DNA of 64,000 nt from Antedon mediterranea (Eukaryota > Echinodermata > Crinoidea > Comatulida > Antedonidae). A model generated the notes under the pieces. The model was not told where the DNA came from and did no database searches. It was given only the letters and a program-made list of their open reading frames with translations. A program made the translations under genes and the position numbers. The DNA lies in NCBI RefSeq assembly GCF_964355755.1, contig NC_092672.1:31988501-32052500 (forward strand), read 5' to 3'. This document shows positions 414 to 63,853 of this stretch, piece after piece. Each line of letters starts with the position of its first letter. Position 1 is the stretch's first letter.

Positions 414-3400
414 TTTTTTAACAGGATTTTTGTAAACTTTTTATGTTTGCGGTTAAAATCAACAATTTTTCGATGAATATAAACAAACAAAGCGCCTCCA
501 AATCCACAAACCACACTGTGAGAGAAAAAAAAATTGCATGATGACAAAATCAGTTTCAGGAAAGTATGTCACTACAGGTCAATTGACACAGACGATTTGG
601 TAACGAAAAAAATAGAATCCATGTTTTTCCTTATGACCATTTACACAATATGTGGAGTGGATGATCGGTTTCCGCACAGGATAGAGACAGATTCTACGTG
701 GGACAAGCTACCGTTACCGGTCGTCTGTGTAAATTGGCCTTAAAGGCAAAGTACGGGAAAACATTTTTATCGATCATACATTCCAATAATTATCGATCTA
801 TAGTGAAAAATGACTGTACTTGAGCTTTAAGTTGTGCCGACATCATATTACATATATTAAACTTACCCAATGAAAGAAAAAGCAATTAACTCTTGTGGAT
901 CAAAAGGAAAATCAACTCGAAAATTTGTTTTAAACAATGCAGTGATTGTCTCTGAAAGAAGAAAAGAACAAAATTAATTTAAAAAAATGTATATTAACAT
1001 AATATATTTCATTGTAATTCAATAAAATAATTTAATCATTATACTTACAAATGTTGAAATATATTTTTTAACAAGTTAAATAATATAAAAGTGAGTGTTT
1101 TTTTGTTACAACAGAGCTTAAAAAGACAGCAGCGTTGGCATTTGGTGATAGGTATACATACGTTTTAAACAAAAAGACTAAAAAACTGTAAAATTATCAA
1201 AATACAAAGATACTATATAATGGTATTAATAAAAAAAAAGCAAAATTCTAATATTAAACTTCTACTTTTAAATTTTGATTTTAAAAAAATAATTTAATTT
1301 TGGTTATTTGTAAATAATGATTGCTTTTTTTACACTAAAATACAACTTTCATTATGAACAACTTAATAAGTGAAGTGAATCGTAGAGTTGAACGTTTTCT
1401 TAAGCACTTCATGTCATCTTCTTCAAGTTTTTTTTATCAGCAGATGAATAAATCTCAACACATTCAACTCTCCACGGCGACTTTAAATCTAAATTAACAT
1501 AACATAAGCTCCCCATGCATATCATTGTCAATTACAATATGTACAGTAGGCCTAACTGTTCTGATATTTGTAGCAGCCAGACATAAGAGGGCTGTTACGA
1601 TTTCCTATCTTGGCAGGGCAAGCTCAGGCGCATGTTGTTAGATTACCTTAACCTTCTCCCCTTTGACCCCCTTCCGCACTCTCCCCCACTCTACAACACT
1701 ATCAAACTTCACAAAAAAAAGTGATATGCCAAATATGGTAGTGATATGCCAAATATGGTAGTGATATGCCAAATATGGTAGTGATGCCAAATATGGTAGT
1801 GATATGCCAAATATGGTAGTGATATGACATCATCATGTCTATATATGGGCACATCACATGAAGTTTAATACCTTCTTCCTGATTCCACACTGCAAGAAGT
1901 CTGAATACAAAAGCACCGCACACAGCACCAAAGAACCCACGCCAGTAATTCCTAACAGCAAAATATGTTGAAGTTACTTCTATACTAAAAAGAACGCCAC
2001 CTATCGGTGCGGCAAAGTTGCACGATACGCCAACAGCACAGGCTGCAGCAAGCATCTCGATGTTCCGAGATTCATTCTGAAAATATTAAAATATTCATCA
2101 TAATAAAAGTGAAGTTATATAGTGGATAGAATCTGGAAGTAAACTTTATTTTAATTCAAATTTGTTTAAATTTATTATAGGAAACTTTCATACCTGTAAT
2201 TTTGTGTGAACCTCGGGAATGTGTAATGTCTATACAGGTAGTTATAATTTTATGTTATCTCACAGTTTCACAGTCACTTTTATAATAGAACCCCTCCATT
2301 GGGACACCCATATTTAGGGGATTTTTTCCCATGAAACAAACAATGGAAATTATTATGTTTAAACACTACAGTGAATTCTTTCAGGTACATACCTATAAAG
2401 AAGATATTTTTTTGGGTCTCAAAGATGTCTCCTTAATAGACGTTATACTGTATTACTGATTAAACCTTAAATTTAACTTTGTTTTTTTCATTATTCATAA
2501 TTATTTTCTTTATATAAAAATATATAAAAAATAATAAAGAATTACAACAAATACATTTTGAATATATAGATATATAAAATATTAAATAAGCAACTTCTTA
2601 AAATCAAATTAATTTCATCTGTTATGCTGTATTTTAAAATAAACAAACTTTTATCAAATTGTAATGTTAGAAAACTGAACACAAACAAATCGAACATGCT
2701 ATAGTGTTTTTGGAAAAAAGCTATTTCAAACCTATAGCTAATAACAGCACACCAACACAGTTTATTTATAAACTACTAAAGTTGAATTCCAAAAAAGATG
2801 ATATCACTCTGATAATCTATTTCTATAGACAAATGTTTTGTATAATATACCAATAAGTAGGTACTTAAAAGCTTACACTATTCATTTAAAGAAAATATCT
2901 AAAATTGATACCAAAACTAATCAATGTAGGAAAAAACACAATTAAACTTAGAAGAGTAATATAATATTACTATTAATATCAACACTAGGAATAATTTATA
3001 GGGTTTTTATTTCTGAACAGCAAAAGAATAATTGATTTTATATATTGTAACATGCATTTCTGTATCTGCATGCAATTTAATACACAACACTGGATTTGAA
3101 CCTATGCATTTAATGGTTTAGTAGGTAGAGCACAACGCAGCTACACTACAAAGGGACGTGTATCACAATGTCACCCTTACACTTACTACGTTCCTACTTC
3201 GACTTGGTCGCTGCCGAGTCTCTTGCTAGAGACAAAAACCGCAAAAAGATGAGAGGAAAAAGTTGCAAAGCGATTCCAAGAAAACACATTCCATGGTAAA
3301 AAATTAATCAATGAACACTTGTTTTAAAAAACATGTTTCAGAAAAAAATTTCATGATTAATAAATATATTTTATATTGATCCCATACAATTTAAACAAAT

Positions 3401-6400
3401 TTGGGCAAAAAAATATTTTGTTATAATCATCAAGAAAACAGTATAATTAACTCATTTAAATGTTGGATAAAGTAGAAAAGATATAAAAATATAGACAGAA
3501 TTGGAAAAAATTATTTAGAAAAAGAAACATTTTTTAAACTTACCTCATATATACCTTTAAATGTTACAATAAATTTACTTAGAAGAGTTGATACGATGCT
3601 AGCAATGTGAACAAAAGGGCCCTGAAAAAAAAAACAAACAGATTCGGATTGGTGGTGAGGTACTGTAATTACAAAAGGGTGAAGATTGAGCACATTTTTA
3701 ACATCCTGTTCACATGACAAACGCAAGCTGCTCTTCATAATGCTTGGTTCACACTAGAGATGCAACGCTTAGACGTAAGTGATAATTTGGTTCCTCTGCA
3801 TCATCTTCTTTTTGGTTATCTTAGGATATTTTATGAACCGTTTTTGTGTTTAAAGTGCTAAAGAAACATTGTATTTATAATTAGGTGCTATAGACAACCA
3901 TTAATATCATCATTTGACCAATCACAAGCGATGGTTTATTCAAACTGTCGCTTGTCATTGGTTAACTCCTTTTGCATTGTGTTTCTAGTGGGAAGCAACA
4001 TTTTTTTGGAAGTAAATTTGTTTTCTTTTGTGGCTTGAACCACAACTTTTATTACATTTTATCATTTTTATAGAATTATAAATTGATTTTGATTTGAATA
4101 AATTGATCAAATTTCATTTATGAACAACAATATTTAAAGCATCCTTCAATTTTCACTTTTTTTTCTTTTTCACTATTTTTTTTATTTTTCTCTTTTTCTC
4201 TATACATAATTAATTCAAATCTTTGGGAGTGAAAATGGTTTTTTTTCATACCAAAATAATGATGGTGTCTTTTAGGAATTGAACCAAGAACCAGGATCAT
4301 TAGGCAAACAATTCAAATAAAGCTACAACTCCTCTTGGTATTAATGAGTATCAGAATAGTCAATTAAATTCTATGAATTCTCAAGAGATTTTATCTGATC
4401 AGTGTAATTAATTGATTCCTAAATTAGGTATCTCATTAGTAGTATTGACATTTAAATTTTCAAGATTTCTAGAGATCTGATTAAATAGAATAAATTAATT
4501 TTAAGTGCTTCTTAAAGTGAGAATACCCAAGGCAAGACATTTCTAGAGATAATTTAATACCTAATTACATAATAAAAAATAATTTATAGTGATTCCTAAG
4601 GAGAGTATCTCATTAGAAAAGACATTTAACTTTAGATTTCTAGAGAGTATAGGGAGCATGTATTGATGTCACTACAAGGTCACATGATACCTGTTCTGTA
4701 ATCTGACAATTAACAATGTAATGCTTATTTAGATAAGTTTACGGAAATAAAGACATGGATATAAACATCAGAGTACCATAGTATATCATTTTCATTACTA
4801 AATCATTTTCAGTATTAATTACAAAACGATGAATGCTTATTGTCAATTACTGATTATTATTATTCTAAGCATCAAAACGGCAGACTGTAATTTATTTTTA
4901 AAATCCAATAATGTAAAAAAACAAATCAATTATTACATTACCATCCAATCATAAATGCTGATGCACATTGTAATACTTAGTAGCAATGAAAAAAAATTAA
5001 TCAATTTTGTCAAGCAAATCATCCATCCTTTTATCATGACTGTATACAACTACTGTAGCTAGCTAAGTACAATTACCCTTTGAACAATTATCTTCCCAGG
5101 ACAAATACCCTCTACAATAAATACCACTCTAACTACCACCTGGAAAAATACCTAAAGAACAACTACCTCCCCTAGGACAAATACTTACCCAGGTAACTGC
5201 TGCACCACATGGACAACTACTGTACCCCCAGATTGTTACCTCTAGGACAAATACCTCCCTAGGACAATTATCTTTTTGGAGAACTACTTCCTTTCGCCCA
5301 CATTTTCATTTATGCCTTCATCATACCATACAGATAGTATAATATCTCTATGATCATACTCCAAAATAAAATGTACCTCTTTCCCGAGTGGAAGACCGCT
5401 GCCAACTGACGTAGCAAGGCCAACTACTTTCGCAATTAACGTTTTGAAAGTCAAATATTCTTTTAAAACTACACCTCGTAGAATTGTTTTCATTTCTGGA
5501 ATACCAGACCCTGAAGAAAAAAATAAAATACAATATTTAAATTGATGGTTTTCAGAAACTGTGGAATACTGTACATGAACTATGAACCAACAGAGCAGGC
5601 CAACTACACCAGAGGGAGATGGTCCGCACTCTTGTCAAGTATTTCAAGTTTAAGTTCAAGTTTCATAACAATTATTTAAAGATGATTAAGTACAATGCAA
5701 TAAAATAATCATATAAGGTCAGAGTTTAAAGGTCAGAGTTATAGGTCAGAGTTTAAAGGTCAGAGTTTGAAGGCAGATGCCCGGAAAGATGAAGGGAAAA
5801 ACATCTTGTGTTGGGCGAGCCTTTAAATAAAGAATTAATAAACAAATAAAATAGAAAAAAAAACTGTAACATTTCACTATGGAGGTTATTTGAACTACCT
5901 CCATGAATTGTGCATGTACAGTATTGACAGGCATCATAGAGCAAATGGAGTGAGTGGCCGAGCGGTTAAGACAGTGGAACGTGCTTTATGGCAAGAATTC
6001 GAGGCTCACTCACTCCATGGTTCTAGTGGTAAAACGAATCTTCTTGGATAAGGACTATAAACCATAGGCTCAGTGTACACAAAGTGCTTGTGTGCACTTT
6101 AAAAGAAACTAGGACATCTAGAGACTTCAGACGAGTAGGGTTACCAGTCACTGTCGTGAACAGAATGTTGTTGAAAAGGTGTAACATCTCGTCCATAGCG
6201 CCATGAGCGATATTGCGCAAATTTCATTATCATGATGGCAGAATTCATATCTTCTTTACAGTGCACAACTACTTTAATAAACCAAATTATAATAAAAATC
6301 ATGTAGATATATTATTACATTATTACAGTACCCTATTGTCCTAAAACAAAATTGAGAAACTTACCCACAGCCTGGGGCGCCACTAAATGTCCGAACCCTG

Positions 6401-14396: not shown

Positions 14397-17300
14397 ATGT
14401 CACGAAGAGGAACTGGACAGAAACGTGGAGGCCAAGATGACGGTTGGGGTGCTTTAGTACGATTCTTCTTTCATATTTTGGTTTAGTAAGAATAAACAAA
14501 GAACATGCACTCATTATTCAATTTAACCTTGTAATGTATTCGAAATGTTCATCTGGTTTTGGATATTCATGAATTATTCATTCTTTTTGATCAATCAAAT
14601 TTTGTTATTATTATGTAAATCATTCTTTTTTTTTTACTCAGCATAGTTAAATCCCTTGCAGACATAAACTCTTCAATTGTTCCACTCTAAATTAACATTT
14701 TTCCTTTCATTTCCTCATAGGGCGGCTATATAGCAGCCAAGCAACATAAGCTTGACAAGCAGTTTACAAAAGAACAGCCACGAAACCGGGAAATTTCTTG
14801 CGCTGGATCCACTATCTTTGAGGGCGTTGCAATCCATGTGAATGGCTACACAGGTATCTGGTAGAACCCCTATTAAAGGGAAACCTTCAAGGCCCTAACA
14901 TATTTTCCGAGAAGACTTGTTCTACCAACAGAACCATAGAGCAAGTGAAGCTTGAACCCTTGCCGATGTTATGGCTAGTTATTATGGTTCCACTGTCTTA
15001 ACCGCTTGGCCACTTACCCTAGTCTGTGTGAGCCTAGATCCTTTTAAAAACAAGTTCTGGTAAAATTATACTTTTACTATACAACTTAATTACAGTATAT
15101 TATTGTTCTTGATATAGTGCCATCTTTAGATGAACTCAAAAGACTAATGATGATTCATGGAGGGAAGTTTGTACACTACTATCGAAAGACACAAGTGACA
15201 CACATCATCGCTACCAACTTGCCACATGCCAAGATTAGGAAGCTCAGCAATGAAAAAGTTATCAGGCCAGAGTGGATTCTGGACAGGTGAATCAAATTAT
15301 AGAGAGTTTTTGATGTTAAACCTGTTTAATCCAACAGGAGTTTACGGGGGTCATGACTGTGACAACCGACAACACATCAATTGACCTGACTGTCGGTATT
15401 CTCAAATTGAAAGATCCCTAATAATAATGTATCTATAAACCAGTTTGTGAACTTTAAAGAACAAACTGTATTCAAATTACATTCCCCCACCCCCCTGAAA
15501 AAAAAAATTGTTTTTTTCTAGGGAAGTGAATAACTTCTTAGGCCTATTCAAAGTCTGATTTATTAATCTTCATTTTAAATCATGTTTTTAAAGGACAATA
15601 CATTTAAATGTAGATATTAGTGTTTTGATACAGTCAAAGATGTAATATATGTTTCAAAATTATATTTGCAGTATCAAAGCAGGCCGTCGGTTATCATGTG
15701 ACTCTTACCAGCTCTATGAAAACAGAACATCTCTACAAAAGTCGTTATCTTTTCAACAAAATTCTGTAAACTATACAACAAATCATGACGATTTGCCAAA
15801 AGACACTGACACTGAAGAAGTAAATCATATTGACATTTGTAATGCATTGCCCAGCAAGCAGAATCTGGAAGGCACAACAGAATTGGAATATCCCAATCAG
15901 AATACTGAAGATAGTCATCAAAAATATGTGGAGAGTACCAAGAAATTGCCATCACCACCAAGTGATGTTAAAAAAACCTCTCCAGCAAAAGCTGGTGATC
16001 CAAGATTTGTTGCAGAGTTTTATAATAATTCTAGACTTCACCACATATCCAGCTGGGGAGCTGAGTTTAAAGAACTTGTGATGCAGTTGCAAAAACAAGG
16101 CGATGGAACATTTCCAGCAAGAGATTCCTTAAGGAATAATGTTAGAGAAGGTTGTCTAGATCAAGAAGATGTTTTGGAAGAAGATGATTCTCTTGGAGAG
16201 GAAGATAACATGAAGCCACCAAAATTGATGAGTCATAAGCCTGATTCATTCACTAAGAAGAAAGAGTCTGAACGCTACATTATGCATGTGGACATGGACT
16301 GCTTCTTTGTATCGGTTGGATTGATCAATCGGCCAGAGTTACGAGGAAAACCAGTTGCTGTCACTCACTCTCGTGGCAATGGCATGCAGCAAGTCAATCT
16401 TGAAGCCAAGAAATATGAAATGGATTACTATCAAAACAAGTATGGGAAAACAATGATGGATGACACAAAGACGTCGGATGGAAGTAAAAGTAACCCTGGT
16501 GTGTTTAATTCTGCTGCAGAGATTGCATCCTGTAGCTATAAAGCAAGAGCAGCTGGTGTACGGAATGGTATGTTTATGGGAGAAGCAAAAAAGCGGTGTC
16601 CATCGATTCAGACAATACCATATGATTTTGATATGTACAAAGAAGTGGCACAAAAGCTATATGGTATTGTTGCCAGGTAATTTTAAGTTTAGTTTACCTG
16701 GATAAACCGAACTTAGCCTTATTCTCCTTGAAAAGTGAGATATACTTAAAAGTAGATAATTCATTGACAACCCCTCTCCCTAATTGGTACAGTCCACAAA
16801 CTATTAATGCCGTATTTAATTGTTTATTATGTGATTGTACAAGGAATATAATTTATTTGATTGTTTCATTCTACAGTAGAACTATTAAGCGATTGAGTGG
16901 CAGTGACAGAGCTACTGTGACCTGATGGAGAGATAACACTCAAAATGACCTAGCACAGGTCAGAGTTCATAACATTGACTTATAAAACAATATTTTATTC
17001 TAAATCACAGATACACTCATGATATCGAAGCCGTCAGTTGTGACGAGATGTTTGTTGACATCACTGAGTTGCTAAGTGACACCATGGCAACCCCTCTTGA
17101 GTTTGCATCCTTGTTACGTGATGAAGTTTACAAAGAAACAAAGTGCAACGCTTCAATTGGTATAGGTATGTTGTTTATTTTTCCTGAAAATCAAAATCCT
17201 GGTGTTTTGACACAATCTAAATTTAAACTTGTAGTGGTCATGGAACAATATTCAAAATACTAAAACTAGATAAATTTTTGTACTCTTTCAGCTCATAATA

Positions 17301-42558: not shown

Positions 42559-42706
42559 TAATTCTGTTTTGTTTTTTATTTGAATATGGTTTCTACAGTG
42601 AAATTAAGACCCTGATTCATCATTTCATAATAAAAAATTACAATATAATTTCCAAATCAATAACTATATGAAATTAATCCTTGTTTATTACTTGAATTGT
42701 GTTCAG

Positions 42707-42946: not shown

Positions 42947-43107
42947 GTAAATTCAATACAGGGTTTTATCTCTTATTTAAACGAAGTGGGTGACTCACTT
43001 TTTTTTCTCATTTATTAAGACAATGCCACTTTGTGATTGTGCAAAGCACAAAATGATCAGAAAATTGTATCTGATATCTTTAAAACTACTGTACATTTGA
43101 ACGAAAA

Positions 43108-44297: not shown

Positions 44298-44311
44298 ATA
44301 AATCAAGAACA

Positions 44312-47300
44312 ATGGCTGAAATCCAGGAAGTAAATGGACCTGTAGGCCTTTCAGATCTGAAAGCTTTGCAATTTGATAAAAATACATGGCCCAGAGATCT
44401 GACACGGCAGAGTAGCAGTACAAGTGGCGTTAGCAGTGAGGGTTGTACGCCACTAGCTTCTCGCAGTTCATCACCTGTCTTTACACGCCTTATCGATAAG
44501 ATAAACCAACGTATTGCACTTAATGAAAGGTGGTTTTCAATAGAATTTTTCCCACCCAGGACGGCAAATGGAGCTGTCAATTTATTATCGAGGTAAAGGC
44601 TTTATTATTATATTAAGCTTCTATTAAAGATTTATTTATATTAATTTAATTTTAACATTATAATAATAGGCCCTACTACTGTATAAATATGAATTTTTGT
44701 ATAATTATAAAATTGTTTTTTTGTTGTTAATAATATAATATTCAGCTTTATTTAAAACAGATTTTAAAATTGATAATCTTTAAAAAAAAATATTGTAATT
44801 TTGAAAATTGTGCCAAAAAAGTTGAATCATGTTAGATCATGCTTTTAAAAAAAATACAACCAGCAAACATCAGTTTTTTATTTCTATTATTGTTTCTATG
44901 GGCCTTGATGATGAACATTGACCTTCATTAATTTCATAACAAAAAATTACAATTAATCACCTGACCTCCAAATCAATAACTATGAAATTCTTGTTTATTG
45001 AATTGTGTTCAGATTTGACAAGTTCTTGGAAGGAGGCCCACTTTTTTGCGATGTAACATGGCACCCAGCTGGCAATCCAGAGGGTGACTCTGCAACTAGT
45101 TCTTTGACTATTGCCAGTTCCGCACTTAATTATTGCGGATTGGACACCATGCTCCATTTGACGTGCGCACGACAGACGAAGGAGAAAATAAGAAACACGC
45201 TCCGACGAGCAAAGGATCTTGGTATTAAGAGTGTTTTGGCACTGAGAGGAGGTAATACAATCACAGGTTTTATCTCCGAACAATGTATCTAAACAAAGTT
45301 GCTGACTCACTTTTTTTTCTCCAATGACCCACAAAATGATTGGAATTGTATCTGGGAATCTAAAAATACACTTGGAAGAAGGGGTTGTCGGTTGGGAGTA
45401 ATATATCGACATGACTGGATGTACTGTACTGAAAAAGTTTATGAATGTGAAAGTTGCCTGGTCTGGGATGGGTGTTTCTTCAGTTTAAAAAAAAAATTTA
45501 ATTATAATAATTTTTTTCACTTTTTAGTTTTACTTAACTGTATACTTGTAATAGTTAAGATAGTAGGGAAATATGTACTATAGTTTAGGAAATACTTATC
45601 AGCTGTTAGTGATGAACAGTTGGTCAAGGTGATGTACAGTTGGTCAAGGTGATGTACAGTTGGTCAAGGTGATGTACAGTTGGTCAAGCTGATGTACAGT
45701 TGGTCAAGCTGATGTACAGTTGGTCAAGGTTTCAACCTGACCACCAATTGACCAATTAATATTCCTACCACAGAAACATTCATAGGATTAATATAATTAC
45801 TGACGGTGTAAAGTTCTGTCTACACTTGCAAACTAGTTTGTGATTTGCCCAAATATGGTAGTGATATGAAATCATCATGATTGTCCATATATGGGCACAT
45901 CAAATTTGTTTGTCACATAAAGTTTGATAGTGTAGACAGAGCTTTAGAATATTTGAACCTGCAGAAGGATTTTATTGGTTCCTAATGTAATTTTAATCTT
46001 TCTTTAGACGCCCCAGATGGTGATGAGTGGACGTTTAATTCGGACGGTTTCAATTACGCAACAGACTTAGTTAAATTCATCAGACAAGAGTTTGGTGATT
46101 TCTTTGTCATCTGTGTGGCAGGTGAGTGCATTTTTATCTTCAGTCTGTTTCCACTACAGTAGGTAATTTTTTATCGTAAATTGAAAGTGCCAGCTTACAG
46201 ATATTCATATTTTAATTTTCAAAATCCCTTTCTGCGACGAATTCGTAGTATTTTGAGTTTTTCTCTTCAGCGAAATTAGTTTATATAAAAACGAGTTATG
46301 AGCGGTCATGAGCACTCATGCGAATCCAAAAAAAGCATGCGATGGATATGAAAACTGCACCTATTAGCTCTTGTGGGGAAAGGGTAGCGTGATTTTGTTT
46401 TTTGGATTCACCTAGTGGAAAATAGACTTCAACTATATCTATATAGTAACTGTACGATTGTTGCGCATCGAAGAATGTACCATATTTTTAGGCAGAATAC
46501 AAAAATTGAAGGTACAGAAAAATTAATTCTGATTCAAGAAACAAGACTTTAAAAAAATTTGAAATTAATTAGAATAAACTTGGTGTTTGCCACAAAGCTG
46601 AAATAATTTATAGAATTATAATATTAGGAATTTTCTGCAGTTTTTGCCTGTTAATCGCTGTACACAACAACATATACTGTACTGGAAAAGTAGAGAGGGT
46701 GCACTATATTTTGGCTTGATGCTTTAATATCTGAATGCCAAAATTGGGAAACTATTTTTATGAGTCAGTACTTTTTTATGGTTTGAAGGACCAAAATTTG
46801 TCTAGTTTATTCTTGAAATTGATGTACTGAGCATTGACAACCTCTTCATACAGAAGAAAATTTCCCTTGCTCTTATCTTGAAAATTTGGTTTGTAGATTT
46901 TGTATTATATTCATGTATTGACGTACAACCAGTCGTGCCTTTGAATATTTCAATAACATGTTGATGTATTTATACAAAGTGTTTTGCTTTGTTCGTGTCT
47001 TGATGTTATTGATATTATTATTGATGTTACTTGTACTTTTTCGCCAAATAAGAGAATAATGAATATTTCAATAACCAAGCATATTGTAGTTTGATAAAGG
47101 TAATTTATATGACGCAAATATATAGGGAATGAAAAAGAATTTCTGTGAAAAACACCCAAAATATGACCTTTTCCAGCTCAATGACAGTGATGTAACAAAG
47201 ATTACCATTTCACCCAAGTGCATAGTTGATTTATAAAAGATTTCTCCTTTGCTTTTGTGTAAAGAAATTCTATGGTCTTATGTTGTATTATAAGGTTGAC

Positions 47301-50240
47301 CTTGATTCAAGGTGGGGTGATTTTATGCTGTTTGTTTATCTTTTTGAGATTTGATAAAAGGTATCTATACTAATAATAGACTGTATGGTGTGACATTGAG
47401 TATGTGCGTGCCAGCAGTTTAATAACAGCTGCCTTACCCTATCATACATTAGACGGACGCATTATAAAATGATACAAATACATGTTCAATTCAAGTATTT
47501 TATTCTATCAAGCACTCTGGCTCGAAAATTGTTTTGTTTGTCATGTACTGTATATAAAACATAAGTTTTGTGGTTTTATTCTCTTTGGATCATCCAAAAG
47601 AAAATGTTATGAATAATATACAGAGATCCAGATAAATCTTTACACCAACTAAAAATATGATGATGAAATGCTAAAATACAAACAGCACGACAACACAGGG
47701 TAAAATACAAAAGCAACAAATACAAAAATTACATAAAAAGGTTAAACATGGCAGTAATAGTATAAAATATGATGAAAATGTAAATGTATAAAAATTTGAT
47801 AAAAGCTTGTTCACCTGACAAAATTTGCATTAAAAAGCCTCATGGCAGATTGGAGAAAAGAAGTTCGTAATCTATTAGTTTTCATATTAAAACATAATTA
47901 ATACCCTTTTGTTCATTTCAAAAGAAAATATTCTCCTGTAATTTATTTGGCTATAAAATAAGTTGATTGCAATATTTAATAATGATACATTGCAATAAAG
48001 TATGAAAAATTCTATTATAGGACATTATAATTTACCATTGTTCATTTCAAAGGAAAATGTTGCCTTTATTAAATTATAGGGATGTTTCAAAGGTTTCTCA
48101 TGTAATGTAATTTGAACAAAATAAGTTGATTGCAATATTTGATAATGATACATTGCAATAAAGTATGAAAAATTCTATTATAGGACATTATAATTTACCA
48201 TTGTTCATTTCAAAGGAAAATGTTGCCTTTATTAAATTATAGGGATGTTTAAAAGGTTTCTCATGTAATGTAATTTGAACAAAATAAGTTGATTGCAATA
48301 TTTAATAATGATACATTGCAATAAAGTATAAAAAATTCTATTATAGGACAATATAATTTACCATTGTTCATTTCAAAGGAAAATGTTGCCTTTATTAAAT
48401 TATAGGGATGTTTAAAAGGTTTCTCATGTAATGTAATTTGAACAAAATAAGTTGATTGCAATATTTGATAATGATACATTGCAATAAAGTATAAAAAATT
48501 CTATTATAGGACATTATAATTTACCATTGTTCATTTCAAAGGAAAATGTTGCCTTTATTAAATTATAGGGATGTTTCAAAGGTTTCTCATGTAATGTAAT
48601 TTGAACAAAATAAGTTGATTGCAATATTTGATAATGATACATTGCAATAAAGTATGAAAAATTCTATTAAAGGACATTATAATTTAATTATAATAGAGGT
48701 CAGGGTTTTTACAATTTAAAAATGTGTTTTTTTATTGTAAAAAAATGAATTTTATTCCTTAGGGTACCCCCACGGCCACCCAGAAGCTGAAAGTTTTGAT
48801 AAGGATATTCTGCACTTAAAACAGAAAGTAGACGCCGGTGCGGACTTCATCATTACGCAACTTTTTTTCCAGGCCAGTACGTTTTTAAAGTTTTTAAGTG
48901 CCTGTCGCCAAGCCGGAATAACAGTGCCTATTATACCAGGAATTCTACCCATTCAGGTACAGTAAATGTTCGTATTTATTAACTGTAGACAAAATAATGT
49001 AATAAAACGAAGATGATCTATATTATTTTTCCGTTATTAAAATTGCCAATGCTTTAGTTTATTTTATTATTATTAAATTATTATATTATTTGATAAGAAA
49101 TCGTGATTGTTAAATTGTAATAAAGAAAGTTTAAAATAAACTATACAACAATTATTAACATAATTTTATATTAAATTTTATATATTTGATGTCTATATCA
49201 TAAAATTATACTGTATATTTAATTTTTTTATATTATTACAATTGCATGATAAAACATTTCTATTTTTATTTTATGTGGTACCTTTTTGTAAAAATTCATA
49301 TATTAATAAATATTTATGATTTTTAATCATATTTATGTTTTTTTAATTTATATCAACAATATTTTATGAGGGTTGTCCATCCAGCCGAAGCTGATCATTA
49401 GGAACCCTCACAAAAATACAATATCATATATAAAATTCTAATTTTCCATATGTTGTCATTTTTAATGTATTTTTAAAGCATTTTGACATCTGGTGTTTGA
49501 TAAATATATATTTTATCTTTTAAATGTTCAAATCAATATCCTTTGAAAAGAACGAAATATCTTATTTTTACTTTTGTATTATTTGTGAAATTTTCCTGCT
49601 ATTTTCACATTGAACTGTTTCCCAGAGTGTAGTGTTATTGAAAGTCAGCTGTGGATGGAATTTTCCGTCATGTGTGTAGCGATAAAGGTTTCATGCTTTA
49701 CAATACTGCCGGTAAATTGATTGTAGTATACGACGTTTTCACTGCTGGTCTATGCTAATATATTCACACTGTAGTATTGATGAATTTATTAAATCTTCCG
49801 GCACAGAACAAATTGTAAACCGCCCGGTGATGTACTGAAAATGAATTAATTAGAAAAGATGCCGTCTCGGTACTTTATTGTGTTTTTATCCTATGATTTT
49901 ATGTCGGAATAAAGAAATAAATAAATAAATAATAAAAGATGAGATCTTCAAGAATATGTTTTTATTCACGATATGTTAATTTATTATGTGTTTGCATTTC
50001 CATTCATCTTTCATGTTTATGCGTATTTAATGGAACCACCCTCGTAAAATATTGTTGAAATAAAATAAATTTTACTTTAATACAGGGATATCATTCGCTG
50101 AAAAACCTTGTGAAATTGTCGGGACTGCAAGTACCAAAATATATCATTGACGTAGTTGAACCAATCAAAGATAATGATGAGGCAATCAGAAATTACGGCA
50201 TTCACCTTTCAACCCAGATATGTCGAGAACTCTTTGATAG
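44312..50240 (+). CDS. MTHFR: MTHFR exons 1-5: FAD/folate catalytic barrel
   Basis: These exons encode about residues 1-327, the TIM-barrel catalytic part, from the serine-rich head to [14 protein letters not shown] and [14 protein letters not shown]. The N-terminal acidic residue of FFPPR (Glu of IEFFPP) is the expected catalytic glutamate. All five are free of stops and frame breaks, unlike the copies at 41460 and 42707. Confidence 0.95.
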
Positions 50241-53200
50241 GTACGAATATTAATTAGTTTTACTTAATAATTCAAGATTTGCTATCCTCTCTCTGATTGT
50301 TAGTTGACCTGGATAATTCCCAGGGTACCATTTAGAGGTCACCCGAGTGTTATGGAATTTTCCATCATGATTGCTTATTCCTAAGATTTTCTATCCTCTT
50401 TTTTTTTTGCTATTTATAAAGTTTGCCCATGTGTTTCCATCATGCTGCTTATGTGTCAAGTTTGCTATCCTCTTTAGTTGACCTGGATAATTCCCAGGGT
50501 ATCATTTTAGGATTACTGCTGATACATATTGTGGAACTTTCCATCATGTAACATTACTAACAAGTTTTAGGATGAAAACAAATATTTGAAAGAAAAGCAA
50601 ACACTTTATTTAGCATTATCATTTGCAAATAATGAACATGGAGGTTGTAGCACCAAATTCTAGAGGGTAATTCATTTATTATTAATTGATGGTTGACTTT
50701 CACTAGTTGACCTTGACTTTGCTGGTTGACTTTGTTAGTTGACCATCGTTTGTGGTTCGATTTGATTTAATAGTTTACTTTGGTTTATTGATTAATGGCT
50801 GACCATTGGTTTAACCATGGAGGTATAATCTATTTTTATACCTCCATGGTTTAACAGTTGACTGTGGCTTTGATAGTTGACCATGGCTTTGGGGGTTAAC
50901 CATTGGTTTAATGGCTCATCATTGGTTGACCTTGGCATTTTTGTTTGACCATGGCTTTGATGATGGTTGACTATGGCTTTGATCATTGACCATTGGTTTA
51001 TTAGTTAAACATGGCTTTGATCTTTGATGACCATTGGATTAATGGTGGACCTTTGACTTTTTGTTAGAATAGATTGACTTTGACCATGGGTTGACAATTA
51101 CTTATTTTTTCTTATCTTTCAGTGGCCATGTTTTAGGACTTCATTTCTACACCTTAAACAGAGAAATCGCCACAAGAGAAATTGCCAAAAACCTTGGACT
51201 GTGGTGTAATGAGCTACAAAGACCATTACCATGGAAACCAACAGCCAATCACACTAGAGTAAAAGAGGATGTTCGTCCAATATTTTGGGCAACTCGTCCA
51301 AAAAGTTATGTATATAGGTAGGTGATTAGCTTTCCCAGTATCCTCATAGGCCTCTCGATACCAGAAAGTTTTCGTAATAGTTGCTAAATTACTAAATAAT
51401 TATTAGATTATTATTAATGGTAAATATCGTAAAAATATATAAAGCCATTTTGAAGGGTACCTGCACTTTTTCCATCACGTTGCTGTTGTGTAGTTGATTC
51501 TCTAGTTGTAATATAATAACTCTATGCCTTAAAGAAGAAAGTCCCCCTAAAAAAAAAAATTAGTTTTTTAATGTTTTTGATAAAAATGTCATTTTAATAT
51601 CACATAATAGTTGGATATCACAAAAATTTGATTTAAAAAATGTATTTACCTGAAAAAACTGTAATTTAACGGAAAAAATAATCAAAGTCAATTGGTTTTT
51701 CTTGAATTTAACAATCTATTTTTTTATTTTTTTTCCTCTATGGAATTTAACTTTATTAAGGTATTTTTATATTAATCTTCATTTTTCATGTTTTTGGGAG
51801 ACAATACATCTTTAATTAATGTTGTCATCTAACGTTCATAGATGTTATTGGCTTCTTATTTTTTTTTATTTCAACCATATTTAAAGAGGGTAACCATTTT
51901 AGTTTAGCCCAGTGGGATAACTGATATTCAGGGGCCCTCTTTAATAACATTAAAATACATTGCAACAATTTATATGAAAAAAATATAATCATATTCCGTT
52001 GATTGTTTTATTTGATTTAGAACTCAGGATTGGGATGAGTTTCCAAACGGTCGCTGGGGTAACTCTAACTCGCCAGCGTTTGGGGAGATGAAAGACTATT
52101 ATCTGTTTTACCTGCGAAGCAATGCTACAAAGGACCAGATGATAAAGCAGTGGGGGGAAGAGCTTACGTGTGAACAAGACGTCTTTGATGTCTTCTCATG
52201 CTATCTGTCAGGTGAACCTAATAGATATGGCAACAAGGTAAAGCTAAATAATTTTACTAATGTTGATGTTTGATTTTGTTAGGAACAGATGTTGAAATGA
52301 AAATGTTGTATTGAAATGGTGCCTGTCATTTCAGGAGGTTTCGGTTTTTAGTGGTATTTTACAGAGAAGAACAGTATATCACTATTTGAGAAAAAAATAA
52401 CGGGAGAGGGAAGCTGCATAAATTTTATTTGCACATGGCACAGTACTGTATATACAGTGTCGCATGTGTACCACATGTGCTGCCTGTATCTTAAACCCTA
52501 ACCTAACTGTCCATGATACAGGCTGCACATGTGATACACTGTGACACTTTATTACAGCTTATTGTACTGGACGTGAATGTCATTTGTGGTACAGCACAAA
52601 GCATCTGATGTATGGCTGTACTTTTTATTATTATTAATGAACTATAACATTTATAGGTAACGCGCATCCCGTGGAATGACGACGAGATCGCTCCCGAGAC
52701 TCAACGCCTTTGTAAGAATCTGGTGGAGTTGAATAAACAAGGAATCCTGACAATCAACTCACAACCAAATGTCAATGGAGAGGACTCCACAGATCCAGTA
52801 GTTGGATGGGGCCCTCCAGGGGGCTTTGTCTATCAGAAGGTATGCTTCTCATAATACTAACTGTACAAATATGGCAATGATATGCTTAAATATGGTAGTG
52901 ATATGCTTAAATATGGTAGTGATATGACGTCAACATGTCCATATATGGGCACATCAAATTTCTTTGTCACATTAAGTTTGATAGTGTAGACAGAGCAGAG
53001 AGAAGAAATTATGATGTGGGATTATACTAAAGCTCTGTCTACACTATCAAACCTCATCTGACAAAAAAATGTAATGTGCCTATTATGGACATGATGATGT
53101 CATATCACTACCATATTTAAGCATATCACTGCCATATTTGGGCTCATCACACTGTTTTTGTCAAACTAGTTTGATAGTGTAGACAGAGCTTAAGTCATGT

Positions 53201-56200
53201 AGGATAATATTATTAGCAAATGTTCTTTTTTCTTTGTAGGCCTATCTAGAGTTCTTTACATCTAGGGATAATATGGAAGCGTTACTAGAAGTGCTACGAG
53301 ACTACCCTCAGGTTAATTTCCATATCATCAACCACACAGTAAGTCTGATTTTTATACGGGGTACCCGAGTCTAGTACTCTCTCATCTTCTTCTCTTCTTC
53401 TTCTTCCATTGGACACTATCGAGTAAAAAGTGCGATTTATAAAGTACTACTCCTCCCTTATTAGTTGTAGTATTGAGCTGGGATTTGGCATGAATATACT
53501 ACAGGGACATGTCCTCAAAGGTATAGAGCCGGATTTTTAAATTTCAAACCGGATGCAGCCATATGACGTCTCGAAGATGGTACCGTATAGCCGTATTTGG
53601 TAGCGAGGTTATTGATGTGTATATGACGTCACATCCCGTCTTATGACGTCATTACAGCTTTTTTTGCTGTACCCCGAGTATCGCACATTCGTGCTTGTTT
53701 CTTACAAGCAGTACAAATGGGTACATTAAGGAATTGCCAAAATATGCTTATTATTAATATTTCAAGTGTTCTTTAGTTGAAAAAAGTCTCCCTTTAAATA
53801 TAATATCCCTTTCATATCACCTTGCCAAATTCTGGAGTTTCCACAGAGCTTGACGGCACACCATACAAAACACTGGTTAACAACCGCTCTGTGTTTTCCT
53901 AGGAACGGTTTTATTGTAAAATATTTCTTTATTTTAAGTTCAGGTCTAATTTATATGGTACAATTTCCTTCCATATACAATGTAGTTTGATATCATGATT
54001 CATTTTACCAGGGCACCGAAAACATCAGAAATTCCGATGAGTTCAAGCCGATTGCGGTCACCTGGGGCGTGTTCCCAGGGGCCGAGATCATCCAGCCCAC
54101 GGTTGTTGACACTATTAGTTTCCAGTATTGGAAGGTTTGTGATCTGTTCTTGTTAACTTACTTCCTCCCTCTGCTAATATGGAAGCATGATGATGCACTA
54201 TGATGTATTATATCAAATAATTTAAATTGACATTTGACCTGGCCGTGTGCTATAAATAGATTTTTTAATCTATTGCAAATTAAAATTGTAAATACAAAAT
54301 GTATCTCAAAAGCAACTTTGTGTTGTTATGGTAACAAAAACACATTCATTTTAGATTTTTTTTCTTCATATTTGTTGCGTCTCTGCAATAGTAAAACCAA
54401 AGCCTTTTTAAATTACAATAAAATTAAATTACAGTAAAATTATTAATTTTTAATATCCAAAATTAAATTTTAGTTTATTAGTATATTTTATGCTCATCAT
54501 GCTTCCAAATTATAACATTATGAAATTAAAAAAAAATATTTTTATTAAATTATTTTGAAATACCACAAAAAAGGACATTTTTTATATGATTTTTCATGAT
54601 TTCTCATATTATTGATCACAAAGTTTTATTATTGAATTTTGATAAAAAAAATATTTTATTCAATCATTTTGAAAAAAAAAAGAAAGAAAAATTTTCAATT
54701 TTCATGATTACTGAATGGCCAAATTTGATTAAAAAACTTCAAATTTAATAACTTCAAATTAATTATTAAATATGGTATAATACTGACTTGGTTGAGGTTT
54801 ACTAATAATGGTTATTTAAAAAAGGCAAAATTATTAACTTGCTTCAATATTTTATATTTTATTTGCATAGGTGCATGGACTATACATTTTTTAAATAAAA
54901 TTGAAAGTGAAAAAAATAACACAATTTTGAAAAAGAAAAAATCTTTAATTTCACATATTCGATTAATTTGACAAATTTTATTTTTTATCATAAATATTTA
55001 ATTACATTATAAATAATATTTGTATTATTCATTGATTGGTAAAGGTATAATAAATATATTGTTTGTATTTTTGTTTGTAAATGTAAATAAATTGCTAAAT
55101 TTCCCATTTTTTTTCCCAGTTTTATAAACATTTGCAAAGCTTGATATCTACACTGGCTACAATTTGCCAATTATGATTTCATTTCAAATAATTTATTTAC
55201 AAACAATATATTTATTATTTATTTGTTGCATGTTAATTTGTATGACATAACATGATGCGATTTTTTTTCTGTTCTGAACATTTACAGCAACTGACTGTGT
55301 TTCAGCGTATCAACATCTGGTGTTTTTTTTTCAGTGTTTTTACAAAAAATTAATGTTTGATATCTCTAAAGAGGGCCAAAGGTCATAGTTTATTTTGGGA
55401 TAAAAAAACTTTTCAAATGGCTTTAAATTTTAGTGTATATTTTACAATGCAAATAAACATTAAAATAAGTTTCTTTTGTTTTAGTGTTTATATACATTGT
55501 ATAAGGTATAGCAAGGCCTGTCGTAAAAAAAAGTGTTTTTATTTCATGTAAATCTCTGCCTTATAGTGCTTTTTATAGATGTTAAACCCACTTTGACTTT
55601 TGACCCAACAAATATATATTTTAGATCTTTGGAAAATCATAATTCAGATTTTTAACAAAATATCAAATAATAAAATGTAATTTGTAAATTAATCTGTAAA
55701 TGCAAAATTAATATTTTATAAATTGTAAGTGTCTGGAAAAATTAAAAAATTAACTTAAAAATGAATTTCATAATTTTACAAGATTTTAAAATGTGTTTGT
55801 TAAAGTCAAAGGTCGTGAAACAGAAAGGATTATTAAAGCAAAAAATTAGCTTGCACTAATCAAGCAATTATTATAAACTTAAACTTAAATTAAAAATTAG
55901 ATTATAATTAGACAGCACAATATATACAATGATAGTCCTTTCTGTTTTGTAATGCACAATTCCAAGAATAAGGTATTTTTCTGAATAATATCAACAATTT
56001 ACACTTGTAGTTTAATTAAATACTTTTAAAAATGAATTTATAAATTGTAGTATTACAAACACTATTATTTTAACGTGCACCGCTTAAAAATAAATTTGGT
56101 GTCCGCTGTTTTTAAGCCAAATAAACAAAAGTGGATGAGCGTATTAAGAGACGCCTTAAAAAAAAATTCAGAAAAATACTTTTGTTGGGTTGTTAAAATT

Positions 56201-59200
56201 AAATGGATAAGTAGTGTGAGTGGGGGTGTGTGTGTGTGCCACGAAACTTGCGTGAAGCCGTCCGTCCGGGAAGGTCATGTGAGGTCAGCATCGTCTCTAC
56301 AGGTATATTTAGTATCGCTGTTAATTGTTTAAATTTATAGTAAATATTTCATTCAACATTTATTTAAATTGCTATAAAATAATATATAAAAACTGAAATT
56401 AAAATCATAAAATTTCAACTATTTTACTTATTTGGGTAAATACTGGTATATATATTAAAAACAAATAATATGACATAAAATGTATATTTAAATCAAGGAC
56501 TTAAGTTGTTAAATAGTGTATCAATATTTTTAAATATGTTAAATTATTAATTCTCTTTCAAATTTAAAAGTTTTAATTAAAACTTTATTACACTAAATTC
56601 CCAAACTTACTCTTAAATTTGATTAACAACATTGCTATATTTCCAATTCACTGGCAACCTACCTGAAAAAATTTGTGATCAAAGCCAAAAAATTGTGGAC
56701 TAAAATGAGAAAAGATTCTGAGGGGTGTTTTGCACTATATCTTATATCATGGAGCATTAGCTCAGAAGGCTAGAGCGTGCAGTCCTTTAGGATTGTGCAG
56801 GTCGAAGGTTCGAATCCCTCATGCACCTGATTAAGATCTGAAGACAAACCTCGGAATCTGACTCTTATGACAAAAATTATCTGTGAAAAATCTGAAATGA
56901 ATTAGCTTGTGGATTGGTATATATGATATAATTGGTATACAGAATAAACAAAATTATTGCTGAAATTAGAATTCTAAAAATATCAAAAAGTACAAAACAT
57001 ATCTATAAAAAAAAACTTATTTTGGCACATAATGTATAATATAGATTGAATGTTTTCCAAATTTGAATCATAAACCTTCTGCCAAATGTGTTTTATTAAT
57101 AATAAATTATAATATGATTTCCATTTAAGCTTTTGCCAACTCTTGTTTGAGTCTAGGCCGTTCCGCCTGAACTTGTCCTTACTGTGGATAGTTTGAAGGT
57201 TCGAACCCTTCATTCTCAAACTATGAGTAAAGCTTAATTTACATATTAATTTGCATATAATTTACATAATAATATTTTCTGAATAATTAATATATTTTTT
57301 TAATAATCGGCAATTATTCTCCAATTTGGATAATTAAAATATTTAATGTTTCTTTGTAAATTAACAATTAAATTTTAAGTAAATACTAAAAACTAAAATA
57401 ATAATACAAGTTAATGATAAATTAATGATAAATACTTATTTTACGATATTTATGATGAAATAGTATGTGTAGATAAAATCTGTAGATAAGTAATTAAGGT
57501 TTATATTGTAATGATTGAATAATCTCGTACCAATATAAGAACAATTGACTAAATTACATTTGAATAATAAAAATATATAATAATACAGTAAATAATACTA
57601 TGGAGTATGTAAAACAACTCATCACAATAAAGGTCTGAATACAGTAAAACCCTTTAAAGAGACCCAACATGTTCCGCCATGATATGGGGTGTCCCCTGAA
57701 TAGAGGTGTCGCATAAATAGGGGTGTCCCCTGAATAGGGGTTAGCTGTAGTGCTGAAATATATATTGCCCCTTGTTCGTTTTACCGGAAAATGTCCCCTT
57801 TATTGGGGTGTCCCCTGAATAGGGGTGTCCCCTGAATAGGGGTGTCCCCTTAATAAGGGTGCTTCCTAAATACGGGTTAGCTGTAGTGTTAAATATTTCA
57901 CATTGTGTTTTTCATTGATAAGTGTGCCCTTAATAGAGGTTGTCCCAAAGAAGGTTCTCTACTGTATTACAAAATTACTGACTCCACACACAATTTGATA
58001 TTCAATCATTTCAATATGAAAGGGTGATAATTATTAGTTAAGTTAAACGTTGTTGTCTAATGATTATCTGTGCACACATGACTTATTGGTAGTGGTCTAC
58101 TATAAGGTAATTGAGTCACATGTTCATAAAACATTTTTTACAAAGTACTGCCTGATTACCTAATTTATTGTGTATACTTTATAATCAAGTTTTTCGTTTA
58201 AGAAAGTATTTTGACTAAAATGACAGGAAAGTATTAAAGTATAGTATTTTGTCATTAATATTTCATGAACATGTAACTTTATTACTTTTAGTTGATTATT
58301 ACTAACATTTTTTATGGTGCATTTCCCTGTTTTATTTAAATATTATATTTTACAGATGAAAAAAAAAATGGTTTTATAAAACTTAAGAATAATGCTTTTG
58401 TTTGATGGCTATCAGCTCATTGGCTAGCAACTTGACTTGTTGCTAGCTGATTGGCTAACAGTTTGACATGCTGGTAGCTGATTGGCTAACAGCTTGGCTT
58501 GCTGGTAGCTGATTGGCTAACAGCTTGACTTGCTGGTAGAAGATTGGCTAACAGCTTGACTTGTTGGTAGCCGATTGGCTAGCAGCTTGAATGACTTAAG
58601 TTTCATTCCAAATTCCATCATCCTTGTTTTAAAGGTGTATTGTCTTAAAAAATTAAGTTAAAAAGTAATTTCATCAATAACAATTTTATGAAGATATGTT
58701 GTTTTTACTTTGAAAAAACACTGATTCTTTTCCATAGTAATATGTTTATCATTAATAATGATAAACAGTTTTTCAGCTAAATTTCAAGAAAACAATTCAT
58801 CTTTAGTAGTAATATATTCTTATCTACTACAAAAGCATTATTCTAAATTTTTTGACACCAGATTAAACTATTAAAAACTAATTTTTTAGTAATAATATTA
58901 ACATAGTCTATTCTCTTCCATAATAGGATGAAGCATTTGGCCTGTGGAAAGAAAAGTGGGCCAAGATTTACCCAGAGATGTCAGTGTCTCGTCAGATAAT
59001 AAATCATATACATGATACGTATTATCTGGTTAACTTGGTGGACAATCATTATCCTAAAGGAAATGTCCTTTTCGAAATACTTCAAAAGATGTTGAAGAGC
59101 AAAGGTAATACTAAAAGGTCAATAGTGTCCATCGATGAACTCGACGGTGCTAAGAAAATAAAGGTTAGTTTTATAAATTTTTATTTTTTTAATTTTTATA

Positions 59201-59562
59201 CACATCCACAGCAAGTAACTCGCCTATTACAAAATGGATTAACTATTTTATAACTTATCGGGCTTATAAACTAAGTCTCATTTAAGGCTTAGCAAGTTTC
59301 ACACTATCAAACTAGTTTGAAAAAAAAAAGTGTGCCCAAATATGGTAGTGATATGACATGTCCATATATTGGCATATCACATTTTTTTAGTCACATAAAG
59401 TTTGATCGTGTAGACAGAGCTTTAGGGCAAAACACTGGACTACTTGACCTCTGACACAAAGCTGCTATTAGTTATTTTTTTTAAAACTTGAAATTAAATC
59501 TGTTTTTTATGTAACAGTATCTTTATCTTTTATTTTTGCAGATGGATGAAGAAATGAATTGA
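44312..59562 (+). CDS. MTHFR: 5,10-methylenetetrahydrofolate reductase, complete, 12 coding exons
   Basis: Cytosolic FAD enzyme that reduces 5,10-methylene-THF to 5-methyl-THF with NADPH, supplying methyl groups for homocysteine remethylation. Exons: 44312-44592, 45013-45251, 46008-46121, 48763-48956, 50086-50240, 51123-51317, 52021-52237, 52657-52839, 53240-53338, 54012-54134, 58927-59163, 59542-59562; 685 codons plus stop (human 656). Landmarks: Ser-rich N-terminal segment (SSSTSGVSS, as in the phosphorylated tail of human MTHFR), [38 protein letters not shown] (strand with the human Ala222Val site; Ala here), HFYTLNRE, then the regulatory half with [70 protein letters not shown] and NLVDNHYP. 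So it is the eukaryotic, AdoMet-regulated form. The 4.8-kb intron 10 is the largest. AATAAA at 60671-60676 is a candidate poly(A) signal. Confidence 0.97.
45600..45735 (+). repeat. 20-bp tandem repeat (six units) in MTHFR intron 2
   Basis: GATGTACAGTTGGTCAAGGT repeated about six times, with CAAGCT in two units. The array runs into TTCAACCTGACCAC, which also occurs beside CAGTTGGTAAGG at 8665. Confidence 0.9.
45810..45946. mobile_element. CTGTCTACACTATCAAAC element copy 8
   Basis: Ends AAAGTTCTGTCTACACTTG and GTTTGATAGTGTAGACAGAG, inverted. It sits about 60 bp upstream of the acceptor of MTHFR exon 3. Confidence 0.85.
46122..47930. other. First part of MTHFR intron 3: no gene seen
   Basis: AT-rich sequence with no exon-like segment and no repeat that I recognise. 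Confidence 0.45.
47935..48690 (+). repeat. 163-bp tandem array (about five units) in MTHFR intron 3
   Basis: ATAAGTTGATTGCAATATTT starts at 47958, 48121, 48284, 48447 and 48610, an exact 163-bp period. The last four units are almost identical; the first is diverged and the last is cut short. It ends about 75 bp before the exon 4 acceptor. AT-rich, non-coding. Confidence 0.93.
50640..51090 (+). repeat. Degenerate TTGACCATGG(T/C)TTTGA minisatellite in MTHFR intron 5
   Basis: Phrases such as GTTGACCATGGCTTTGA and GACCATTGGTTTAATGG recur through 450 bp up to the exon 6 acceptor. At 50811-50854 TTAACCATGGAGGTATA faces its inverse TATACCTCCATGGTTTAA, giving a long hairpin. Confidence 0.8.
51123..59562 (+). 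CDS. MTHFR: MTHFR exons 6-12: barrel end and AdoMet-binding regulatory domain
   Basis: Exons from 51123 carry the last barrel strand ([10 protein letters not shown]), the linker, and the whole regulatory domain that binds S-adenosylmethionine in animals. The last coding exon is only 21 bp (59542-59562: MDEEMN and TGA) and was chosen because the preceding exon ends in frame at a GTTAGT donor and a TTTTTGCAG acceptor sits before it; without splicing the reading would continue into VSFINFYFF, which is not family-like. Confidence 0.9.
52465..52540. repeat. Inverted repeat in MTHFR intron 7
   Basis: GTACCACATGTGCTGCCTGT (then ATC) faces GATACAGGCTGCACATGTGA (then TAC) with about 25 bp between: a 23-bp stem with two mismatches. 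Confidence 0.7.
52856..52998. mobile_element. CTGTCTACACTATCAAAC element copy 9
   Basis: Right end TTTGATAGTGTAGACAGAG intact; left end worn. Starts 17 bp after the donor of MTHFR exon 8. Only about 30 bp separates it from the next copy. Confidence 0.8.
53029..53193. mobile_element. CTGTCTACACTATCAAAC element copy 10, the best-kept
   Basis: Left end AAGCTCTGTCTACACTATC; right end GATAGTGTAGACAGAGCTTA: perfect inverted ends over about 24 bp, ~165 bp in total. It is adjacent to copy 9 in MTHFR intron 8. Confidence 0.9.
54135..56740. other. First part of MTHFR intron 10: AT-rich, no gene
   Basis: Long A/T runs and no exon-like segment. One GTGTGTGTGTG tract at 56225-56240. Confidence 0.45.
56751..56828 (+). 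tRNA. tRNA-like sequence with abnormal anticodon arm
   Basis: GGAGCAT pairs with ATGCACC (6 of 7), the D-arm GCTC/GAGC is perfect with a 9-nt loop, and GGTTCGAATCC is a perfect B-box in a T-arm with one mismatch. In place of a 5-bp stem and 7-nt loop the middle forms a 9-bp stem (three G-T pairs) with a TTTA loop, so no normal anticodon can be read. It lies inside MTHFR intron 10. A tRNA pseudogene or tRNA-derived repeat is most likely. Confidence 0.45.
57184..57226 (+). repeat. tRNA T-arm relic
   Basis: GAAGGTTCGAACCCTTC is a perfect tRNA T-arm (5-bp stem, 7-nt loop), flanked by AGTTTGA / TCAAACT. No other tRNA arm can be built next to it. Confidence 0.4.
57640..57966 (+). repeat. TGTCCCCTGAATAGGGG cluster
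   Basis: GGTGTCCCCTGAATAGGGG occurs several times in a row, with GTTAGCTGTAGTG twice. It is the same sequence class as the GGGGACA repeats in the channel and REV1 introns, here expanded. Confidence 0.7.
58425..58590 (+). repeat. 31-bp tandem repeat in MTHFR intron 10
   Basis: AGCTGATTGGCTAACAG starts at 58445, 58476 and 58507, with worn units on both sides (about six in total), giving a 31-bp period with TTGACTTGCTGGT between. Confidence 0.85.
58631..58805. mobile_element. Inverted-repeat element (TTTAAAGGTGTATTGTC ends)
   Basis: TTTTAAAGGTGTATTGTCTT at the left and AAAACAATTCATCTTTAG at the right are loosely inverted. The end resembles the outer ends of 35118-36025. It lies about 120 bp before MTHFR exon 11. 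Confidence 0.5.
59296..59424. mobile_element. CTGTCTACACTATCAAAC element copy 11, in MTHFR intron 11
   Basis: Ends TTTCACACTATCAAACTAG and AGTTTGATCGTGTAGACAGA, inverted. Core AAATATGGTAGTGATATGAC as in the others. Confidence 0.8.
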
Positions 59563-61841: not shown

Positions 61842-63853
61842 TTAGTGCATGTTCTTGTATTTCCTCATATGCGATGCAATACTACCGGCTATTTCATCTT
61901 GCAACTTGTTTTGGCCGTAATAATCTATAAACTGACCATCCGGGTCAAGAAGGTACATGATGATTGTATGGTCAACCTGAGAAAAAAATTATTTAGAATT
62001 ATCTCATTTACTTTTTATATACATGTATCAGTATTATATCAGACCTGATTTACACTTACGATTTATACTCACTCCTGAGGACGATCAAAGTATATTAATC
62101 GAAACGTCGAGAAACTCAACAGTTCTTTTCAGAACTAATATACGTGATGTACCCGCCGCAAACTTTATATCAATATTTCATTTGAGTTAGTATATTTCCC
62201 CGACATTTCAACTGATTTTCCGTATCACGTTAATGTACTATGCAATTTACCACTTGGCTACTACTGTAGCACCCTCTATGTTTAGCTGTATTATATTAAA
62301 ATATAGCACCCTCTATGGTTTGGTCACACAGTTTTCTGATATTTCATTTTTCAAGTTTGAAGTAAAGTACCTCTAACAACAGGATGCTGAGCTCTGAAGA
62401 TCTAAGGGTTTATCTGTGGCTGCAACACAATCGGTTTAACAGACACCGTATGCCGTGGGGGAATATGTACATAGTACAGTACTGTTGGTATTTGTTGCAG
62501 CCAGACATAAAATCAAAGGACTGCTACGAGTTCCTATCTTTGCAAGATGAGCTTAGTGTCCTGTTGTTAGATTGCCTTAATTGTACTAATTAGTTACTTG
62601 CTCTTCATTGTTATTAATAACTTACAATGTAATCATTGTCCTCATCTTTAGGCCCCTGACTGAAATAAACTCTGAAGTTCTTCGCTGCTTCTTTCACCTG
62701 TTCATTTGTTCCAGTTAAACCAATAAATTTTGGGCTAAATTCTAGAAAAAAATGAAAAATATAATTATTTTATTAATTACAGAATTTTTAGACAGGAACT
62801 TCAGATAACAAAACTGTTAAGGAAACACTTTTAGGACTCAAAATCAATTTGCTTTTAAAGGTTGTTGTTGTTAAAACATACCCTCATTTCATCAAGAAAG
62901 TGTCCCCTTAATAGCGTTGTTGTTCCAAAGGAGTCGTTTTACTGTATTTAATGTTTTGTTTCTAATTTATCATATAGTCAATGTTATCTCAGAAGCATGA
63001 TGAACGTATTGTTTGATGTGATCTGACCTTTGACATAAGCAGCAATTGTTTTGATATCATCCCTCTCTGGATCAATTGTAATAAACAGCGGAACGACATT
63101 TGGTAAATTGCGACTCTCATCTGTAAACAAAATTATGATATTGAACTGATATTATACTAAGAAAGCTAGTAACTATTAGTTACAGTCCCAAACTAGTATT
63201 AGTTAAAGTCTGTAACTATTAGTTATAGCCTCAAACTATTAGTTAAAGTCACTAACTATTAGTTACCGCCACAAACTATTAGTTACAGTCACTAACTATT
63301 AGTTACAACCCCAAACTATTAGTTACAGCCCCAAACTAGTAGTTATCAGTAACTATTAGTTACAGCTCCAAACTATTAGTTTAAGTCACTAACTATTAGT
63401 TACAGCTCCAATCTATTAGTTACAGCCCTAAAGTATTAGTTACAGCCCTAAACTATTAGTTACAGCCTTAAATTATTAGTTAAAGTCAGTAACTATTAGT
63501 TACAGCTCCAAACTATCAGTTAAAGTCACTAACTATTAGTTACAGCCTAAACTTTTAGTTAAAGTCACTAACTATGATGATTGAACGAGCACTTTATGAA
63601 TACTGTATAATAACAAGTTTTATTTCGGTTATGCTTTATTGATCGTAGTACATACCAATTTTATTTACAACATCCACCATCTTCTCTAGTTCATCAGGAC
63701 AGATGTCAGGACAATGAGTGAAGCCAAAGTACAATAGTACCCATTGGCCAAGGTAATCTTTGTTTGTCTTTGGATTTCCTTCATGATCAACCAATGAGAA
63801 CGGCCCTCCTATAGCCGCTTTACCAAGAGATCTTGATCGTTCCTTTTCAAGAG
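61842..63853 (-). CDS. SCO1: SCO1/SCO2-type copper chaperone for cytochrome c oxidase, last four exons
   Basis: Mitochondrial inner-membrane protein that delivers copper to the CuA site of COX2. Exons, 5' to 3': 63853-63656, 63120-63028, 62741-62626, 61976-61842; about 180 residues of the thioredoxin-like domain, in phase, with the stop TAA at 61844-61842. Landmarks: [32 protein letters not shown] (copper-binding CxxxC), [30 protein letters not shown] (the copper His is the H of VDHT), DYYGQN. The N-terminal targeting peptide and membrane segment lie beyond 64000; the last ~25 bases do not give a convincing next exon. SCO1 and SCO2 are not separable in invertebrates from this part. Confidence 0.95.
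62073..62110 (+). repeat. CTGAGGACGAT..ATCGAAACGTCG motif (hammerhead-like, Penelope-type repeat end?)
   Basis: CTGAGGA (62075-62081) fits the hammerhead core CUGANGA. GAT/ATC can pair as a short stem, then GAAAC follows at 62101. No closing stems or cleavage site are seen nearby, so at best it is a remnant. Such CTGA(N)GA...GAAACGTCG phrases are common in animal retroelement tails. Confidence 0.3.
62381..62590 (+). repeat. Dispersed ~200-bp repeat, longest copy, in SCO1 intron
   Basis: GATGCTGAGCTCTGAAGATC, CTGTGGCTGCAACAC, GCAGCCAGACATAA and CCTGTTGTTAGATTGCCTTA occur in the same order as at 32553-32736 and, in part, 1540-1660. This copy has an open frame of 69 codons, but it is not kept in the others. 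Confidence 0.7.
63160..63565 (+). repeat. AACTATTAGTTA(C/A)AG tandem repeat in SCO1 intron
   Basis: AACTATTAGTTACAG(C/T)CC and AACTATTAGTTAAAGTCACT alternate about twenty times with a 17-22 bp spacing. It lies between the exons at 63028-63120 and 63656-63853. Confidence 0.9.

Follow-up and report, generated by a model that had tools for sequence, protein, structure and literature searches.

The regions around human TP53, TP63 and TP73 represent one paralogous block derived from the vertebrate genome duplications, as published in 2017 (PMC5543598). The limits of this paralogon are 5.01-8.10 Mb on chromosome 17, 144.91-187.25 Mb on chromosome 3 and 0.76-11.92 Mb on chromosome 1, and in Trichoplax the p53-family gene shares one scaffold with VAMP2 (PMC5543598). 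At the level of whole chromosomes, comparison of amphioxus with other lineages revealed that linkage is conserved while gene order is for the most part scrambled (PMC7269912), and annelids and outgroups display macrosynteny without microsynteny across bilaterians (PMC11371463).

The window analyzed here is a stretch of 64 kb (G000:C3:31,988,501-32,052,500) from an assembly of 354 Mb in 18 contigs, in which chromosome C3 measures 38.96 Mb and holds 11% of the genome bases. Six named genes had been proposed to lie within it, and Pfam and PDB comparisons confirmed that all of them are real. From left to right they are a CLC-2-type channel (minus strand), REV1 (plus), a p53-family gene (minus), a TTC36-like gene (plus), MTHFR (plus) and SCO1 (minus).

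The p53-family gene extends over positions 24896..38247 of the minus strand, as deduced from PF00870, PF07710, PDB matches and coding segments. Exons of the DNA-binding domain were located at 32738-32893, 32113-32379 and 31511-31642 with a candidate at 33147-33221, and the joined exons matched PF00870 with 1.4e-46 over profile positions 39-192 of 193. The tetramerisation domain is present downstream on the minus strand near 30,700 (motif at about 30657-30734; PF07710, 5e-14). A putative C-terminal exon was assigned to 24896-25213 and a TAD-like FxxLWxxL peptide, MPVLFNALWNQLGEVTQ, is proposed at 38155-38247, both on the minus strand. The top PDB matches were Alvinella p53 (7PC6) followed by p63, p73 and p53. 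A PF00870 search of the whole assembly revealed no second p53-family gene. No SAM domain of the p63/p73 type was detected 3' of the tetramerisation motif on the minus strand between 22,000 and 31,800, a search that an intron-split SAM domain would escape; this domain is usual in p53-family genes of annelids, molluscs and deuterostomes (PMC5543598). Adjoining the putative C-terminal exon, a tandem array with a unit of 26-29 bases (ACAGCAGCAACTACAAAGGCAGCAACACA) occupies 25434-26169 within the p53 gene region.

The chloride channel gene is partial (1765..5634, minus strand), as it is truncated by the left edge of the window, and another exon was found at C3:31,986,577-31,986,780. Its exons in the window lie on the minus strand at about 5365-5517 (containing GSGIPE), 3514-3753 (GPFVH) and 1765-2085. 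The gene matched PF00654 with 2.6e-29, and the top PDB matches were CLC-2, then CLC-1 and CLC-K, with CLC-3, -7 and -6 far lower, which assigns it to the CLC-2/1/K type. An extra fragment at G000:C3:31921418-31921531 (PF00654 positions 298-336), about 65 kb to the left of these exons, could represent a distant last exon or, alternatively, a second copy.

REV1 (15646..20981, plus strand) was identified by PF00817, by a REV1_C match at its 3' end slightly below threshold (26.0 versus a cut-off of 26.5 bits) and by REV1 as top PDB match (3e-51). Its catalytic exons start at 15646, and more 5' exons probably lie upstream. Positions 19310-20146 of the gene contain a recent tandem duplication of two stretches of about 406 bases that are 89% identical, and a related third stretch starts at 20364. 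The duplicated stretches encode near-identical peptides resembling ubiquitin-binding motifs.

Two coding segments on the plus strand at 40278..41123 form a gene matching TPR families of Pfam. The TPR domains identify its product as a TPR protein; for its apparent similarity to human TTC36, we call the gene TTC36-like. MTHFR (44285..59250, plus strand) contains both of its domains (PF02219 and PF21895), and its best PDB matches are eukaryotic MTHFRs (5.6e-114). Directly upstream, the 5' part of the gene has been partially duplicated in tandem: the region 41460-43009 aligns with 44436-45321 and looks like a partial copy; the pieces are 79-85% identical by blastn and 91-94% identical in ungapped blocks. 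SCO1 (61872..63863, minus strand) matched PF02630 with 1.4e-45, and SCO1 was its top PDB match (2e-77), ahead of SCO2.

Outside these six genes, the right flank carries an SLC33A1-type gene (PF13000), an amino-acid permease and an LRR gene resembling PPP1R7. Just left of the window lie two long, almost identical coding segments (L027 3780-5204 and L028 4958-6529) that contain NHL-like repeats, appear TRIM-like by eye and are surrounded by duplicated and retroelement-like sequence.

The original prediction was that this stretch preserves the neighbourhood of the single ancestral p53-family gene, from which each human paralogue kept a different member. Human REV1 (2q11) and TTC36 (11q23) map outside the 17p13, 3q26-29 and 1p36 segments, and with no human counterparts there both genes depart from the predicted pattern. 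In human, MTHFR is located near 11.8 Mb of chromosome 1 and CLCN2 near 184.3 Mb of chromosome 3. Published data place CLCN2 at 3q27.1 (PMC10118774), MTHFR at 1p36.22 (PMC10779094), SCO1 inside the chromosome 17 interval 9.68-10.8 Mb (PMC1687196), and TP53, TP63 and TP73 at 7.66 Mb on chromosome 17, 189.6 Mb on chromosome 3 and 3.65 Mb on chromosome 1, respectively (PMC5543598). The separations of SCO1 from TP53, CLCN2 from TP63 and MTHFR from TP73 thus amount to roughly 3, 5 and 8 Mb. The predicted human bands were about right, but given these coordinates a shared band means megabases between the genes. SCO1 falls outside the published chromosome 17 block of the TP53 paralogon.

Of the five named neighbours, three have counterparts in the three human segments. 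Assuming that these segments hold 3-8% of genes, the probability of this outcome is about 0.0003-0.005, and the set therefore exceeds genome-wide chance. Independence of the genes is presumed in this calculation, an assumption that fails if all of the chromosome is related to the human segments. Once chromosome-wide linkage is allowed for, three of five need not exceed expectation: with an assumed 0.3-0.6 of the conserved C3 genes in the segments, the probability rises to 0.16-0.68, and should much of the conserved gene content of C3 map there, three such neighbours are expected. Fourteen 10-kb pieces spaced along C3 contained very few conserved genes; most of their content was repeats, lineage-specific genes and a Helitron-like element.

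Linkage along the chromosome was analyzed by searching the whole genome for seven families of our own choice, each represented in the human TP53/TP63/TP73 paralogon. Human DVL, mitofusin, enolase, CAMTA, SKI, ATP13A and FXR genes are positioned within its 1p36, 3q26-29 and 17p13 parts. All except FXR had a match on C3; as this chromosome makes up 11% of the genome, a binomial calculation by length gives a P of about 1e-5 for six families out of seven. DVL (Dishevelled) was found at 29.47 Mb, mitofusin at 0.66 Mb, enolase at 11.15 Mb, CAMTA at 8.16 Mb and ATP13A-type P5-ATPases at 10.2, 10.9 and 33.3 Mb. SKI lies at 32.44 Mb, about 0.4 Mb from the window; reading of all three loci led us to judge this one to be SKI and its relatives on C5 and C11 to be DACH and SKOR. 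Contrary to C3 linkage, FXR is located on C5, and a weaker enolase-like match as well as one more P5-ATPase are located on C4. Two control enzymes, FTHFS and PGI, whose human members lie outside the paralogon, mapped to C10 and C8; only these two controls were run. Two further genes join the families on C3. A 14-3-3 gene closest to epsilon resides at 1.0 Mb, and human YWHAE lies in 17p13. A CLC-6-type gene resides at 10.48 Mb, 21.5 Mb from MTHFR; Gaughan 2000, as its title in the reference list of PMC10779094 states, reported linkage of MTHFR and CLCN6 in human and mouse. The closeness of MTHFR to a CLC gene in the window was considered as a relic of this linkage and rejected, as the channel in the window is of the CLC-2 type and the CLC-6-type gene is far away.

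The family matches on C3 are scattered from 0.66 to 33.3 Mb. Together with the gap between the CLC-6-type gene and MTHFR, this scatter indicates that the relation to the human segments concerns the whole chromosome and that order has been lost. We consider it very likely that the window sits on a chromosome derived from an ancestral linkage group that was later multiplied in vertebrates, with scrambled order. C3 (39 Mb) would descend, at least partly, from one ancestral animal linkage group, which two vertebrate genome duplications would have multiplied into the 17p13, 3q26-29 and 1p36 paralogon with TP53, TP63 and TP73. The separate vertebrate copies would then have retained different single-copy neighbours, while C3 would have stayed single, leaving one p53-family gene linked to families that are split over three human chromosomes. 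Chromosome membership would have been conserved as internal rearrangements shuffled gene order, and the closeness of CLC-2, p53, MTHFR and SCO1 may be a local product of this shuffling that needs no function. The linkage of the listed families on C3 and their spread are direct observations; from them we infer the ancestry of C3 and the duplications and losses that followed. With chromosome-wide linkage and scrambled order, several such neighbours in 64 kb are unremarkable.

A different explanation is ancestral microsynteny, in which CLC-2, p53, MTHFR and SCO1 were adjacent in the ancestor, perhaps kept together by shared regulation, and each vertebrate p53 paralogue later retained different members. 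The presence of all these genes within 64 kb, with another paralogon family, SKI, so close by, is what such a history would leave behind. Taken as a whole it is unlikely, as the human counterparts are megabases apart with many genes in between, the CLC-6/MTHFR linkage is stretched on C3, REV1 and TTC36 break the pattern, and order is generally lost over such time (PMC7269912, PMC11371463). The human distances and the arrangement on C3 demonstrate that gene order and adjacency were not retained in the vertebrate copies. It appears more doubtful still that the four genes form an ancient tight block that was maintained by regulation in invertebrates and split among the TP53, TP63 and TP73 regions. 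That the genes lie within 64 kb provides no evidence of a preserved local neighbourhood; the scattering of the other families argues against such preservation. Pure coincidence, by which the shared neighbours are meaningless and C3 is unrelated to the human p53 segments, might draw on the two misfits among the five neighbours and on FXR, but is hardly credible with six of seven paralogon families on C3 and both controls elsewhere.

The proposed descent of C3, at least in part, from one ancestral linkage group retains the original prediction at the level of the chromosome, where it is strengthened by the paralogon families, the epsilon-like 14-3-3 gene and the CLC-6-type gene, but not at the scale of a 64-kb neighbourhood. 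Were the tight cluster to prove old, this would suggest a regulatory block around the p53 gene that has so far gone unsuspected. Among open-licence papers searched for the gene set together and for p53-family synteny in invertebrates, we found no report of the six-gene cluster in 64 kb, a silence that does not show that the cluster is unreported.

Like the human TP53/TP63/TP73 paralogon, C3 points to one ancestral segment with a single p53-family gene and common neighbours. It differs from the published paralogon in that the single-copy state is seen here on a chromosome-scale assembly and with other families, and in that SCO1 lies beyond the chromosome 17 block. As in the ancestral linkage groups described for chordates and bilaterians (PMC7269912, PMC11371463), chromosome membership is kept and order is scrambled. 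The pattern is already known at a scale of tens of megabases, from which the 64-kb stretch is not singled out, and this genome is another example: a clear and easily explained case of one ancestral chromosome underlying the three human p53-family regions.
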